Shown piece by piece: positions 8,741-64,000 of a stretch of 64,000 bases of DNA. The stretch spans positions 93,769-157,768 of the forward strand of contig CANRNQ010000002.1 of assembly GCA_947632045.1 (NCBI GenBank). Reading direction: 5' to 3'. A program made the translations under genes and the position numbers. Under the pieces are notes generated by a model, which did not search any database, had not been told where the DNA came from, and saw only the letters and a program-made list of their open reading frames with translations. The stretch's first letter is position 1. The number at the start of each line of letters is the position of its first letter. The stretch comes from an uncultured Clostridia bacterium. Its GTDB lineage: Bacteria; Bacillota; Clostridia; Oscillospirales; Acutalibacteraceae.

Positions 8741-8780
8741 CTGCAATGACCGCTTGTTTTGCGGGATAATACTCCCTTGC

Positions 8781-8968
8781 TTTGCGGGCTTTGGACCGCA
8801 GTCGGCGCTGCTGCGCAGCGGGACTGCTGCTTTAGATATTATTTATTTGCAGGAGGAGCTTCGCTCCTCCTGCACCTCCACCTTCTCGCTCAGATACATT
8901 TTGGGACTGAGCTTTTATATCCGTAAATAGATTTATATAACGAATTTAAAATAATGGGAGTGGAGCTC
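8781..8968 (+). repeat. 188-bp direct repeat, copy 2
   Basis: Second copy, offset 228 bp from copy 1 (40-bp spacer), with A-to-G and G-to-A changes only. The same 11-bp palindrome lies at 8849-8873. The unit ends with GGGAGTGGAGCTC, a motif that recurs once more at 9069-9080. Confidence 0.9.
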
Positions 8969-11117: not shown

Positions 11118-11218
11118 ATTTCGCTTTATCTTTTTTATTATTACTCCTCCTCTCGCCGCCGCCCCCGCGTTACATTTCTATGCTGAATTAAGCTATGAAA
11201 ATACAAGGCAAAAATATG

Positions 11219-12599: not shown

Positions 12600-15207
12600 C
12601 AAAAAAAGAAGCAACTCATTTATGAGCGTTTTTCTCTGGAGCATAAAAAAGCATAAGGCGCTTTTGATAGTTTATTCGGCTTTACTGCTCTTTTCAAGCC
12701 CCATCATCGGGCTTATCGCCGGCACGTCGCTTAGCAGCTTTAACAATCCGGTCACGCCCGCAACCTTCGGCTTTTTGACCACCGGGGTCGCCATGATAAT
12801 GACGGTGATCGTTCCGGTAGTCCTGCTCGATTATCTGCACAACAAGCGCAAGGCGGATATGTTCTGCTCTCTGCCGATAAAAAGGCGCAGCTTATTTTTC
12901 TCGCGCTGGCTTTCGGGACTTGCGATACTGATTATCCCCTACATTATAAACTCGGTTATCGCCTGCATTCTGAGCCTTCCCTGCGGCCCTCCGAATTACC
13001 CGGGCTTTAACGCTGTGGCCTTCACCGTTAACACGGTCGTTATATCGCTGCTTTCGATAACCGCCTCCTACTCTTTCACCTCATTTATCGCTCTTTGCTG
13101 CGGCACGACCATGAACACCGTACTGTGCACAATCTTTATCAACATTTCCTATCCCCTCGCCTATTCGGCCATGTCATCTATGTTTGCCTCGATAATACCG
13201 GGAATAAACATAAAAATGGCGGGCAACCTGTTTTTTAACGACATTTTATCCCCTCTGCTTTCCCCGTTCAACGATATTCTCTCATCGGCCTACGGGGGAC
13301 TGCACACCGCATATGCGTCGTTTTTTAACATTTCGCCGGAATCGCTGATATCAAGCATAATCATAATTGCCGCGTCTATAACGGCCTGCGCCGTTATTGC
13401 AAAGAATCGAAAAAGCGAAGCCGCCCAAAGCTCGTTTGCATATAAAACTCCCGGAATAATAATCCGCTTTATAGCGACCGCTGCCGCCGGAATGATAGCC
13501 GCGATGATTCTGAGCTCCATTCCCATGTTTCAATATGCGTTTTTCTCCCCTGAGAAGTCGGCGGGAATCTCTTCCCCGGATCCGTGGTTCATCTACCTCA
13601 TATTTATAATCACCTTTGCAATCACCGCCTTTATCGCACACCTTGTCGTTACGGCTATATTTAACAAGGGCTTCAAGGGATTTTTGAAATCGCTCATATG
13701 CTATGGTCTTGTGGTTCTGATTATAGGCGGAACTTACACCACGCTCGCCTTCGGAGGCTTTGGCGCTGACAAGTATATTCCCGATCTCGACGAGATATCC
13801 GAGGTTCAGGTGGATTATTCTGAATTTGAAGAATACGGACTTGCCGGAACTCTTACCTCGGCGCTATTTAATATCTTTTCGGTCGCTCCGTATTTTAATT
13901 ATGATAATTACGATGATCAATTTTCGTCGCAGCCCCAATGTATTCAGGCTCTCGCCGAGGAGGATATAAAATCGGTTCTCGATATACACCGCGGGATAAT
14001 AGAAAATTTTCCGCAAACCGATCCCATGCCGTATCATATCCGTAATGACTTTGAAAAATACGCATATAAAACTGATGATTATGAGCCTGAAGATTATGAG
14101 TCCGAAGATTATGAGCCTGAAAACAGCATTATGCAGGCATCGAACATAAGATTTATTTACAAGCTTAAAAACGGCTCGACCATAGCCAGAGAGTACAATT
14201 CTCAGTTTTTATACAACACCTCTTTGGGGAAAGAGCTTTTAAAGCTGAAGGAGAGCACCTTAACACACAATGCAGAAATATTAAAGGGGCTTATCGGCGA
14301 CGAGAATTATGAATTTACGAGCATTGAACTCAACGGCTCGGAGGTATATTATTATTCCTACGACTGTATCAAAAACAAGAGCGCCGTCGACGCCTTTATC
14401 GCCGCCTTTATCAGCGACTTTGAAAGCGGTGGGGAGCAAAAATACAACGACTGCATATGTGAAAATTTGCAGTTTAATTACCGCGACAAGCGCAGCGGCG
14501 AGGAGAAAAAATTAAACGCCTTTATTCCGTCGTCGTTTAAAAACACAAAGGCCGCGCTTTCAAGCTACGGTTACTACGAAACGATACAAGCTCCTTTCTA
14601 TTATTCAAACTACACTGCTACTCCGACGGAGAGCGAGTTCACACTGCCGAAGAGCATAAGCGGGAAATATCTGAAGGACAGCGTCGAGGTTATGAACCGT
14701 TCGGAGAATATTTCTCTCAGTTCCGTCAATGAGTATATTGAAAACGTCCTATACGGCTCAGGGGCCAACATCAACTCCCCGGAGAGGCTGCTCGTCGAGG
14801 CTTATCAAAGGGATAAGCTATACTGCCGCATTGTTTACTCGGACAGCGAGGGCAAGCTCTATTACTACGACGATAAATTCTCAGACTTTGAAAAATACAA
14901 AAACCGCGAAAATGATATAAAAGAGGCGGCGAGCAGAACGCGCTACGATGAGGACATATCTTCGCTCTATTCCTTTTGCGCACCCTATCTCAGGGACAAG
15001 AGCGATTCGTCTAAAATATATTCTCCGGCTATAATCCAGTTCTACACCGACGACGAGAATGTGCTTACCTCTCCGATGAATATTGAAGGGATAGAAGACG
15101 CTCCCTCCGAATTTACATTTACAGGCATTAAATATGGCCCTTGCAGCATTGTCGCTCGGAATCTTATTTCTGCCGACGGCAAGTCGTATATTTATCTGAG
15201 CCTTTAA
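12574..15207 (+). CDS. Large ABC transporter permease of the GntR-ABC operon
   Basis: About 877 aa from MTSAILSDNKKRSN, with GGAGGG 8 nt upstream (an ATG at 12553 and earlier in-frame codons are less well placed). The N-terminal 400 residues hold roughly eight membrane segments (FLWSIKKHKALLIVYSALLL, FGFLTTGVAMIMTVIVPVVLL, and others, ending near LICYGLVVLIIGGTY). The remaining 450 residues are hydrophilic and rich in Tyr, Asp and Ser, likely outside the membrane. This region carries a 15-bp tandem repeat encoding DYEPE-DYESE-DYEPE. No family was recognised for the soluble part. Confidence 0.85.
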   Translation: MTSAILSDNKKRSNSFMSVFLWSIKKHKALLIVYSALLLFSSPIIGLIAGTSLSSFNNPVTPATFGFLTTGVAMIMTVIVPVVLLDYLHNKRKADMFCSLPIKRRSLFFSRWLSGLAILIIPYIINSVIACILSLPCGPPNYPGFNAVAFTVNTVVISLLSITASYSFTSFIALCCGTTMNTVLCTIFINISYPLAYSAMSSMFASIIPGINIKMAGNLFFNDILSPLLSPFNDILSSAYGGLHTAYASFFNISPESLISSIIIIAASITACAVIAKNRKSEAAQSSFAYKTPGIIIRFIATAAAGMIAAMILSSIPMFQYAFFSPEKSAGISSPDPWFIYLIFIITFAITAFIAHLVVTAIFNKGFKGFLKSLICYGLVVLIIGGTYTTLAFGGFGADKYIPDLDEISEVQVDYSEFEEYGLAGTLTSALFNIFSVAPYFNYDNYDDQFSSQPQCIQALAEEDIKSVLDIHRGIIENFPQTDPMPYHIRNDFEKYAYKTDDYEPEDYESEDYEPENSIMQASNIRFIYKLKNGSTIAREYNSQFLYNTSLGKELLKLKESTLTHNAEILKGLIGDENYEFTSIELNGSEVYYYSYDCIKNKSAVDAFIAAFISDFESGGEQKYNDCICENLQFNYRDKRSGEEKKLNAFIPSSFKNTKAALSSYGYYETIQAPFYYSNYTATPTESEFTLPKSISGKYLKDSVEVMNRSENISLSSVNEYIENVLYGSGANINSPERLLVEAYQRDKLYCRIVYSDSEGKLYYYDDKFSDFEKYKNRENDIKEAASRTRYDEDISSLYSFCAPYLRDKSDSSKIYSPAIIQFYTDDENVLTSPMNIEGIEDAPSEFTFTGIKYGPCSIVARNLISADGKSYIYLSL
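14077..14121 (+). repeat. 15-bp tandem repeat, three units, in the permease gene
   Basis: Units at 14077-14091, 14092-14106 and 14107-14121 (GATTATGAGCCTGAA type), encoding acidic DYEPE/DYESE/DYEPE in the extracytoplasmic region. In frame, so unit loss or gain would change only length. Confidence 0.9.
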
Positions 15208-15224
15208 CGGCAGGCTGTTTTGCG

Positions 15225-15459
15225 GCTGTCGCGGCGGCTCGTTTTTACGCTGTGCGCATATCGGGGCTTGGGTTCGGGCGGCGACCGGCCCATTTCCGCC
15301 TCCGGCGGAAATGGGCGGAAACGCGGCGGCGATGAGCTTCTGCCCCGCATCAAAGACCCTGCCCCGCCGCGTTTCAAGCGCGGCCTGCGGCCGCGCGGGT
15401 CGCCGCCCGAACCCCCCATGCTTCCGCTCAGACCTACCGGGGCATTTCGGCGCGACAGC
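15225..15459 (+). repeat. Cloverleaf element A (intergenic palindromic repeat)
   Basis: Fills most of the 376-bp gap between the permease and rmuC. Nested pairing: outer stem GCTGTCGCG (15225-15233) with CGCGACAGC (15451-15459); main stem, 17 perfect bp, 15270-15286 with 15398-15414 (core CGGGCGGCGACC); then three arms around a junction: arm 1 CCCATTTCCGCC/GGCGGAAATGGG (15289-15315, 3-nt loop), arm 2 GAAACGCGGCGG/CCGCCGCGTTTC (15318-15329 with 15364-15375, 34-nt loop), arm 3 GCGCGGCC/GGCCGCGC (15378-15396, 3-nt loop). Junction linkers are 1-2 nt. Orientation is set by arm order AT-rich, long-loop, GC-rich. Function unknown. Confidence 0.9.
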
Positions 15460-35895: not shown

Positions 35896-36133
35896 CGGCC
35901 GTCGCTGCGGCGCGCCCTTATTTTGAGCGGGGAGATAGGCGCTCGGGCGGCGACCGGTAAATTTCCGCCTGCGGCGGAAATTTACAAAAACGCGGCGCAG
36001 GGGAAGCCCCGGCAAAGCAAGTGAATTTTCCCGCCGCGTTTTCCGCGCGGCGCAGCCGCGCCGGTCGCCGCCCGAGCGTTTCACGCCCGCTTAAGTCTGA
36101 GCGTAGAAGCCCAACACCCGCCGCTTGCGGCCG
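35896..36133 (+). repeat. Cloverleaf element B (intergenic palindromic repeat)
   Basis: Occupies most of the 364-bp gap between lepB and rplS. Outer pairing CGGCCG (35896) with CGGCCG (36128-36133) plus GCGGCG/CGCCGC; second stem TTGAGCGGG (35923-35931) with CCCGCTTAA (36086-36094, one G-T pair); main stem 35940-35957 with 36061-36078 (18 bp); arm 1 TAAATTTCCGCC/GGCGGAAATTTA (35958-35984); arm 2 AAAACGCGGCG/CGCCGCGTTTT (35987-35997 with 36032-36042, 34-nt loop); arm 3 GCGCGGC/GCCGCGC (36045-36061). Same orientation as element A. Confidence 0.9.
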
Positions 36134-52530: not shown

Positions 52531-52793
52531 GCTGCCGCAGCTGTCTGTTTCACTTTGTGCGAAAAAAAGGGGCTCGGGCGGCGACCGGCGCGGCGCAGCC
52601 GCGCGGAAAAACGCGGCGGCGGGGGCGGGGCCTTCGGCGGAGCTTGAAATTATATCGCCGCGCCTAAGGCTTTAGGGCGCACCGCAGTCGGTGCCGCCGC
52701 GTTTTTCGCCGAATTTTCGCCGGAGGCGAAAATTCGGGGTCGCCGCCCGAGCTCTGCCCTCCCGCACAAAGCGGTAAAAGGCAACGCGGCAGC
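52531..52793 (-). repeat. Cloverleaf element C (intergenic palindromic repeat)
   Basis: Fills the 339-bp convergent gap between the ABC exporter and the HAD gene. Outer stem GCTGCCGC (52531-52538) with GCGGCAGC (52786-52793); second stem CTTTGTGCG/CGCACAAAG (about 52552 and 52762), 9 perfect bp; main stem 52572-52586 with 52738-52752; arms in reverse order: GC arm GCGCGGC/GCCGCGC, long arm AAAAACGCGGCGGC (52607-52620) with its complement at 52693-52706, AT-rich arm CGAATTTTCGCC/GGCGAAAATTCG. The long-arm loop is 72 nt, twice that of other copies, with an extra hairpin. Confidence 0.88.
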
Positions 52794-52834: not shown

Positions 52835-53551
52835 TCATTTAATCCCGTCAAGCAGCTTGGGGAAATCCCCGAGCTGCTTGATTTTATAATCGCAAAGCTC
52901 ATGCGGCATGGGCACTTCGTTTCTCGAATCAAAAAGGCAGGTCGCAATGCCCGCGTTCCTGCCGCCGAGCATATCGGACGTGAGCGAGTCGCCGAGTATA
53001 ATGTATTTATCCCGCTCGCGGTCGCCTATCTTATCAAAGCAGTATTCAAAAAATTCCGCCGACGGCTTGTTTACGCCTATCGCCTCGGAAATAAATACGT
53101 CGGTCATATATTCCAAAAGTCCCGTGCTTTTCAGTCTGCCCATCTGGGAAATCATCGCGCCGTTTGTCGCTATATACAGCTTATACCTCCCCGACAGCTC
53201 CCTGCACATCTCGTGCGCCCCGTCTATCGTCGCGGCGCAGAGAGATAGCCTGTCGATATAATAGCCGTTCATGTCGGCGGCTGAAATATCTCGGGCTCCA
53301 AGGCGGCTCAGAAGCCCTTCAAACCTTGTAGCCACGAGCTCCTTTCGCTCGATCTCGCCGCGCTCGAGCAGCTTAAAAAGGCGGAGATTTTCATCTGAAT
53401 AGCCGCGATAAACCTCGTCTGTAAAGCGCAGACCGTAATGCTCAAGCGTCGCCTTCAGCGCCGCGCGCTCGCCCGACGGAAAATCTAAAAGCGTTTCGTC
53501 CGCGTCGAGAAATATATATTTTATCCTGCTCTCACTATTCAAAGTCGTCAC
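52835..53551 (-). CDS. HAD-superfamily hydrolase, YjjG-like nucleotidase
   Basis: 238 aa. HAD motif I FLDADETLLDF, motif II in YIATNGAMISQ, Lys in VNKPSAEFFEY, motif IV IILGDSLTSDMLGG. The DADET form of motif I and helical cap match YjjG pyrimidine nucleotidases that remove non-canonical nucleotides. Overlaps the TIGR03936 gene by 17 nt. Its last codons contain a 32-bp inverted repeat. Confidence 0.9.
   Translation of the reverse strand: MTTLNSESRIKYIFLDADETLLDFPSGERAALKATLEHYGLRFTDEVYRGYSDENLRLFKLLERGEIERKELVATRFEGLLSRLGARDISAADMNGYYIDRLSLCAATIDGAHEMCRELSGRYKLYIATNGAMISQMGRLKSTGLLEYMTDVFISEAIGVNKPSAEFFEYCFDKIGDRERDKYIILGDSLTSDMLGGRNAGIATCLFDSRNEVPMPHELCDYKIKQLGDFPKLLDGIK
52849..52880 (-). 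terminator. Inverted repeat in the 3' end of the HAD gene
   Basis: CAAGCAGCT-x-GGGG-N4-CCCC-x-AGCTGCTTG: 13 paired bases with a single T/G mismatch, inside the codons for KQLGDFPKLL. A run of T follows 19 nt later (minus strand), after the stop, so it may serve as the terminator. Confidence 0.5.
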
Positions 53552-58575: not shown

Positions 58576-58802
58576 GCTGTCGCGCTTTACGCTTTGAGTG
58601 TGGAGTATTGCGCCAAGGGCGCTTCGGGCGGCGACCAGCGCGGCGCAGCCGCGCGGAAAACGCGGCGCTCGGGCTTTTTTAAAGAGGCGGCTATCTTATC
58701 CGCCGCGTTTTCGGCCAATTTCCGCCGCAGGCGGAAATTGGCGGTCGCCGCCCGAAGCGCAGCCTCCCGCTCAAACCAATCGAAGGCCCTGACCGCGACA
58801 GC
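58576..58802 (-). repeat. Cloverleaf element D (intergenic palindromic repeat)
   Basis: Fills the gap between the MATE gene and vanZ. Outer stem GCTGTCGCG (58576-58584) with CGCGACAGC (58794-58802), identical to element A; second stem TTTGAG..GGAG (58593) with CTCC..CTCAAA; main stem of 18 perfect bp, 58619-58636 with 58743-58760; arms in reverse order: GC arm, long arm GAAAACGCGGCG (58656-58667)/CGCCGCGTTTTC (58701-58712, 33-nt loop), AT-rich arm GCCAATTTCCGCC/GGCGGAAATTGGC. Ends 10 bp before the vanZ stop. Confidence 0.9.
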
Positions 58803-63910: not shown

Positions 63911-64000
63911 GAGGCTCTCGGGGGCCGCGCTCTCACGCTCTTAATTTGAGCTTATGTCGGGCCTTCGGGCGGCGACCGGCAGCCTCGCGCCGAAGGTGCG
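63911..64000. repeat. Cloverleaf element E (truncated by window edge)
   Basis: Carries the TTTGAG box (63945-63950) and the left main-stem core CCTTCGGGCGGCGACCGG (about 63962-63979) in the same spacing as copies B and D. The sequence after the stem (GCAGCCTCGCGCC) differs from the arms of the other copies. The right half lies beyond the window. Confidence 0.75.

Follow-up and report, generated by a model that had tools for sequence, protein, structure and literature searches.

Cloverleaf-shaped intergenic repeats in an uncultured Clostridia bacterium, read as a structural DNA element

The window analysed here is a whole stretch of 64,000 nucleotides that ends with contig C2 of the host, an uncultured Clostridia bacterium. 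Within it, an ABC permease ORF ends at 15207 and is followed, before the next gene on the same strand, by a gap that holds a compact palindromic unit, copy A, with these parts:

15225..15459, + strand: copy A, whole unit (235 bp), by folding and family membership
15225..15233, + strand: left unit end GCTGTCGCG, by end-to-end pairing
15270..15286, + strand: main stem, 5' side, by fold and alignment, with the nearly invariant CGGGCGGCGACC at 15275-15286
15288..15316, + strand: arm 1, an AT-type palindrome with the triloop TCC, by fold
15317..15377, + strand: middle arm, with the conserved base AAACGCGGCGG/CCGCCGCGTTT and a variable interior
15378..15396, + strand: arm 3, the GC-type palindrome GCGCGGCC-TGC-GGCCGCGC, by fold
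15398..15414, + strand: main stem, 3' side, by fold and alignment, with the nearly invariant GGTCGCCGCCCG at 15398-15409
15451..15459, + strand: right unit end CGCGACAGC, which pairs with the left end, by end-to-end pairing

The fold of copy A consists of an outer stem formed by the paired ends, a 17-bp main stem, and three hairpins joined by short linkers. Its minimum free energy as RNA is -147.1 kcal/mol (z -6.6), whereas 200 dinucleotide shuffles average -111.9 (sd 5.3), and DNA folding gives z -8.75 on the plus strand and -7.61 on the minus strand. The four-way cloverleaf with a 17-bp stem and three arms, which the first-pass annotation had proposed from the letters, is thus borne out by folding. 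Its companion statement, that almost all of the inner part can pair, holds for the stem and the outer arms but not for the interior of the middle arm, which pairs weakly and varies between copies. The constant element is the inner 12-bp stem, outside of which 0 to 10 further pairs form, depending on the copy.

Related units had been pointed out near 35896, 52531, 58576, and 63911, and all of them were recovered by a covariance model built from 42 sequences that include copies A, B, and D but neither C nor E. The outer limits given below for copies B, C, and D are those of the first-pass annotation.

35896..36133, + strand: copy B, core 35944-36074, model match 35942-36076 (E 1.6e-22)
52531..52793, - strand: copy C, with a long middle arm, core 52575-52749, model match 52573-52751 (E 1.6e-19)
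58576..58802, - strand: copy D, core 58625-58754, model match 58623-58756 (E 6.1e-23)
63911..64000, orientation not decidable: copy E, truncated where the contig ends, with a core from 63966 and the model match 63964-64000 (E 0.0052)
11153..11169, no strand assigned: scar of a lost copy, of which half a main stem remains after a deletion; the sister genome (G002:C7) has this copy intact

Copies C and D are reversed relative to A and B. Copy E is cut by the assembly, because the end of the window is also the end of contig C2; the contig stops inside this copy (63964-64000), and cloverleaf repeats may hence break assembly. The deletion that left the scar at 11153-11169 can be read as the junction of two TCGC repeats. 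The window also contains an ordinary strong terminator-like hairpin adjoining copy C (52847-52882) and, at 8764-8854, a further small palindromic intergenic repeat of the GCTCCTCCTGC type, the length of which differs between the host and its sister species.

The unit is present many times in the host genome (G000; 2.24 Mb, 87% complete), of which 837,228 bases were fetched. The number of copies depends on the definition: a looser rule yields 87, a sequence-blind junction finder 84, the position-sharing test 83, and the covariance model 189 matches with E up to 0.001, summed over both strands. Searched as a strict pattern, the 12-bp stem CGGGCGGCGACC...GGTCGCCGCCCG gives 67 copies and its reversed control none, and the junction finder returned nothing once 12 of the 41 stretches had been dinucleotide-shuffled. 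The check that had been suggested, a search of the host for further copies, thus turned up many. Among the 106 copies for which both ends were found, the unit has a median length of 227 bp (range 201-263); on either side a median of 46-47 nt separates the end from the core, and the two ends match each other as T-A or C-G in 45 of 46 such copies in the host and 59 of 60 in the sister species (G002). With the strict end motif, both ends were not found in 47 of 93 host copies and 39 of 99 sister copies. No Rfam family matches the window at the gathering threshold, and across six loci the three matches up to E 1 (E 0.26-0.93) are every one below gathering; a search of the open PMC literature found no such cloverleaf or cruciform-forming element by title. 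These results support the view, already put forward on first inspection, that the gaps of this genome hold a new, unnamed family of cloverleaf-shaped intergenic repeats. A subfamily at L004, L012, and L157 (5107 and 8648) has the stem GGGGCGGCGACC, and in it other GC-rich flanks, partly with extra hairpins, replace the usual outer ends.

Across the family, the arms are diverse in sequence and almost perfect in pairing. Among copies whose stem has no more than four mismatches and whose outer arms each reach at least 6 (93 in the host and 99 in the sister species), the outer two arms are fully Watson-Crick paired in 176 of 186 and 187 of 198 cases, respectively, and there are 84 distinct first arms in the host and 76 in the sister. 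An alignment of 42 cores contains double changes in 16 of 36 pairs. The pairs are not equally variable: the commonest arm pair occurs in 20-25 of the 42 cores at columns 19-21, yet in 38 at column 23 and 37 at column 27, and therefore the sequence of the arms, besides their pairing, seems to be selected. In arm 1, the letters TT/CCGC are set by the parsing anchor and are no evidence of conservation; the AAAACGCGGCGG/CCGCCGCGTTTT element of the middle arm is conserved. The loops also have a pronounced type. Of 161 triloop hairpins inside the elements, 139 are C-GNA-G or C-TNC-G, that is, C-GNA-G on one strand, as opposed to 18 of 127 outside (Fisher p 4e-37, the copies being related rather than independent). 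In stretches of three other genomes, triloops of the C-GNA-G type are 0 of 13 (G003), 0 of 15 (G004), and 2 of 22 (G005). Loops longer than three bases occur in 44 of 186 arms.

The sister species offers a view of how the unit changes. In the region searched, long matches between the two genomes have an identity of 93-96%. In 38 orthologous pairs of copies, the main stem has two changed bases in 454 pairs (908 bases), whereas the flanks changed at 510 of 5,064 positions (about 10%) and the unpaired core at 288 of 1,640. The main stem was therefore kept in spite of this divergence by selection or by homogenisation; the diversity of the arms argues against wholesale homogenisation. Comparison of arms 1 and 3 between orthologs gives 24 mirrored changes, in which both sides changed to another Watson-Crick pair, along with 21 single-sided changes, two double changes lacking Watson-Crick pairing on both sides, and 15 cells with a gap on one side, some of the latter three kinds being register effects next to loops. 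A manual count from the listing gives 21 of the 24 mirrored changes as impossible to pass through one G-U pair. Among the 73 arms that could be parsed (of 76), the stems differ in 24, and 19 of these are perfect in both species; by eye, 14 of the 19 have changed or replaced stem letters and five have changes beside the loop. The loops of the 73 arms are the same in 38, exactly inverted in eight, flipped in class in one, and otherwise changed in 26. Gene conversion between copies could be another source of mirrored changes. The positions of copies are likewise shared: in unbiased stretches 15 of 15 in one direction and 14 of 15 in the other, largely at the same sites, the exception being the loss in the host that left the scar at 11153-11169, and no gain was seen at the 15 unbiased sites. 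Larger tallies of 38 of 38 and 39 of 39 come from a biased set, in which many target loci were chosen for holding a copy.

Beyond these two species, the exact stem is narrowly distributed. Of 60 genomes searched, only the host and the sister, a member of the same genus with 97 copies, have it; the other 58 relatives do not. In a wider scan of contigs, almost all of the matches listed fall in CANPZK01, an uncultured Clostridia MAG with places that agree with those of the sister genome. Six matches outside the clade (Rhizobium, Verrucomicrobia, Pseudonocardia, Planctomycetia, Mesorhizobium, and Alienimonas), among the matches listed, lack a cloverleaf fold. A viral origin was also considered, and viral contigs gave no match to the exact stem pattern.

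Searches by covariance model and by fold reach further. Each of these genome searches was capped in the number of candidates scored (40 of 169 in one, up to 81 per genome for 40 genomes, and up to 21 per genome for 150), and their counts are lower bounds. Across 40 genomes including the host, the model adds G005, of the same genus, with at least nine matches over both strands and seven places at E up to 0.001, and one weak match (E 7.8e-4) in G008, of another genus. Four G005 loci and three G008 loci were folded, and they form four-way junctions with other sequences. G008 has a stem of its own, GGCGGCCG, in 17 copies against none for the control; a search of 150 genomes with this pattern matched 21 others, several of which also gave control matches, and the ones listed do not look like three hairpins by eye. 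Across 150 genomes of the family, under stricter filters that missed G008, the model added a single match, in G110, which belongs to a third genus. The pattern of the G110 stem has three matches there, a count that proves nothing because the reversed control gives 22; each of the three nonetheless folds into a four-way junction, and their arm sets differ strongly from one another. The folded junctions with other stems and arms in G008 and G110 therefore indicate that the shape is found again across three genera, each time with other sequences; common descent or convergence may lie behind this. The junction finder returned none in 40 kb of the G008 contig C1 and three in 40 kb of its contig C9, which was chosen for model matches, and none in 14 other genomes, G005 included, of which stretches of 5.5 to 140 kb were scanned. 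In 120 kb of the congener G004 there is one four-way junction plus a few relatives: it lies at L226:12017-12140, with a different 18-bp stem, and a related copy 3 kb away (about 15109-15224) is 87% identical over 230 bases. The same 120 kb has about 11 repeat-dense places, and L226 (at about 2260-2420) and L230 (at about 7600 and 13800) contain an intergenic repeat, unrelated in sequence, with many densely packed hairpins.

The copies were placed relative to genes by mechanical ORF calls, after calls consisting to at least 20% of a copy had been discarded. Of the 87 host copies, one lies inside a retained ORF call, four lie at stretch edges, and the remaining 82 were classified: 54 in tandem, 16 in convergent, and 12 in divergent gaps. 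The 224 copy-free gaps comprise 116 tandem, 50 convergent, and 58 divergent ones, such that divergent gaps are somewhat rarer with a copy (p 0.045). In the 54 tandem gaps the core lies a median of 76 nt from the upstream gene as opposed to 134 nt from the downstream gene, and the copies there run 21 times with and 12 times against the direction of the genes. A regular spacing, as would befit a landmark of the nucleoid, was rejected: the coefficient of variation over 69 gaps is 0.91, the same as at random (0.91, sd 0.09).

The bias towards gene ends, the lean in orientation, and the very stable RNA fold of copy A are what one would look for if the copies were 3' UTR elements or small RNAs in which selection for the RNA fold keeps compensatory changes. 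We nonetheless consider a structured RNA unlikely. The strand tests lend no support to this reading, which was one of the three first offered for copy A: stem mismatches are G.T in eight and A.C in 12 cases in the host, and 11 and 12 in the sister, with no clear excess of G-U. The six pairs at arm-1 columns 18-24 of the 42 cores include no G-U cell and four C-A cells. On the sense strand, G-U leads A-C slightly, by eight to five in 53 copies, in a count that uses earlier ORF contexts which misplaced copies with an overrunning next ORF call, copy A included. Moreover, most of the mirrored changes between the species (21 of 24) could not have gone through one G-U pair, eight of 73 loops are the reverse complement of their orthologs, the preference in orientation is not strong, and Rfam offers no match at threshold. 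A role as transcription terminators is less probable still, and we regard it as highly improbable. It would have the middle arm, with an A-tract, a GC stem, and a T-tract on both strands, end transcription from both sides, and it could draw on the conservation of AAAACGCGGCGG/CCGCCGCGTTTT and on the location of most copies behind genes. However, the T-tract is short and stands behind a stem with a long interior, a terminator scan limited to loops of 3-8 lists no terminator within the core of either copy C or copy D, the strong match being the one beside C at 52847-52882, and the other arms and the stem are left unexplained.

Paired ends at a fixed distance from the core and the many dispersed copies, with an exact stem confined to the host and one sister species, recall a dead or resting MITE-like transposon, that is, a non-autonomous element with terminal inverted repeats that relied on a transposase in trans and has no present function. 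The suggestion of a miniature mobile element survives in part, in that the ends are paired and covary where found; the part that did not survive is a clear duplication of the target. At lengths of 2-9 nt in 45 host copies no target-site duplication stood out, the largest excess being four as opposed to 1.9 expected at k=2. In addition, the stem has hardly changed while the flanks diverged, unlike a decaying copy, the few unbiased sites show no gain, and within the family searched, the Y1 transposases (RAYT, PF01797), none could be linked. This family has no member in the 87% complete host and one in the sister, with no copy in its 3.4-kb locus. A resting transposon thus appears improbable as well.

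We instead favor, at a probability of roughly 0.5, the reading that the cloverleaf works as DNA and not as RNA, with arms that extrude and have their halves copied by replication and with a stem that is a protein site; of the three readings first proposed, a DNA cruciform or hairpin fits best. Where the DNA is supercoiled or single-stranded, each of the three arms would form an extruded hairpin, within which replication would likely switch template and rewrite one arm half from the other, leaving mirrored changes. The nearly invariant stem would be the likely recognition site of a protein, and an enzyme that acts on the folded strand may have dispersed the copies at an earlier time. Judged from the ortholog comparison, mirrored changes together with inverted loops are the footprint to be expected of template switching in DNA hairpins, and PMC8794818 names multiple compensatory changes together with loop inversions as the predicted outcome of template switching. 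Hairpin extrusion is likewise predicted through a requirement on the loop sequence (139 of 161 triloops): in the promoters of phage N4, extrusion under supercoiling depends on a C:G closing pair and on the G and A bases of the loop (PMC4496689). That the many palindromes are due to a lost SbcCD, the hairpin nuclease, was considered and rejected, as SbcD matches are present in six of six genomes of the genus.

Dispersed intergenic units with inverted repeats are familiar from bcr1 and other bacterial structured repeats, and repeats of this type are not known to have a cloverleaf junction. The closest working model is a REP/BIME-like structural DNA site, mostly behind genes. REP/BIMEs are described in PMC3733652 as high-copy, species-specific palindromes mostly in tandem and convergent gaps, the neighboring units of which may form larger folds. 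The 87 copies are alike in being numerous, intergenic, and mostly downstream of genes. However, they are cloverleaves of about 230 bp with a four-way junction rather than palindromes of 20-40 bp, they combine a nearly invariant stem with freely varying arms, no Y1 transposase could be linked to them in the 87% complete host or in the sister, and they have no GTAG/CGTC tag: within 8 nt outside the main stem, GTAG occurs in 6 of 192 and CGTC in 3 of 192, the junction linkers have neither, and the left unit end has them in three and three of 110 copies. We read the unit as a DNA-level repeat that is like REP/BIMEs in abundance and position and differs from REPs in tag and size. Copies with both ends found share terminal inverted repeats with MITEs but differ from them in showing no excess of target-site duplications. 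The mitochondrial repetitive or double hairpin-forming elements of fungi and sponges are, according to PMC2800124, multi-hairpin and intergenic, with unrelated sequences among related genomes and a proposed mobility; the sponge elements conserve stems and vary loops, whereas the cloverleaf varies its arm stems in mirrored fashion, fixes its closing stem, and resides in a bacterial chromosome. Template-switch hairpins share the multiple compensatory changes and loop inversions; those described in PMC8794818 lie in rRNA and other RNA genes, where compensatory change with loop inversion is rare, in contrast to a high-copy intergenic repeat. The early promoters of phage N4 are alike in loop type, and differ as single short hairpins read by the phage RNA polymerase (PMC4496689).

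On a more tentative level, with the odds somewhat against it, the cloverleaf might represent a new class of bacterial chromosomal element that is recognised as a folded four-way DNA junction rather than through the bulk of its sequence, with a closing stem specific to each lineage of this Clostridia family and with arms that are rewritten, and yet kept perfect, by template switching. If this is true, the repeats would be a natural record, replicated many-fold, of DNA hairpin formation in a living chromosome; the arm halves and loops of each copy could be scored for template switching, and the shaping of a genome by DNA folding could be watched. The same shape with other stems and arms in two further genera (G008 and G110) would mean that the shape is kept rather than the sequence, and with such conservation the search for a protein that reads the stem would become a concrete question.
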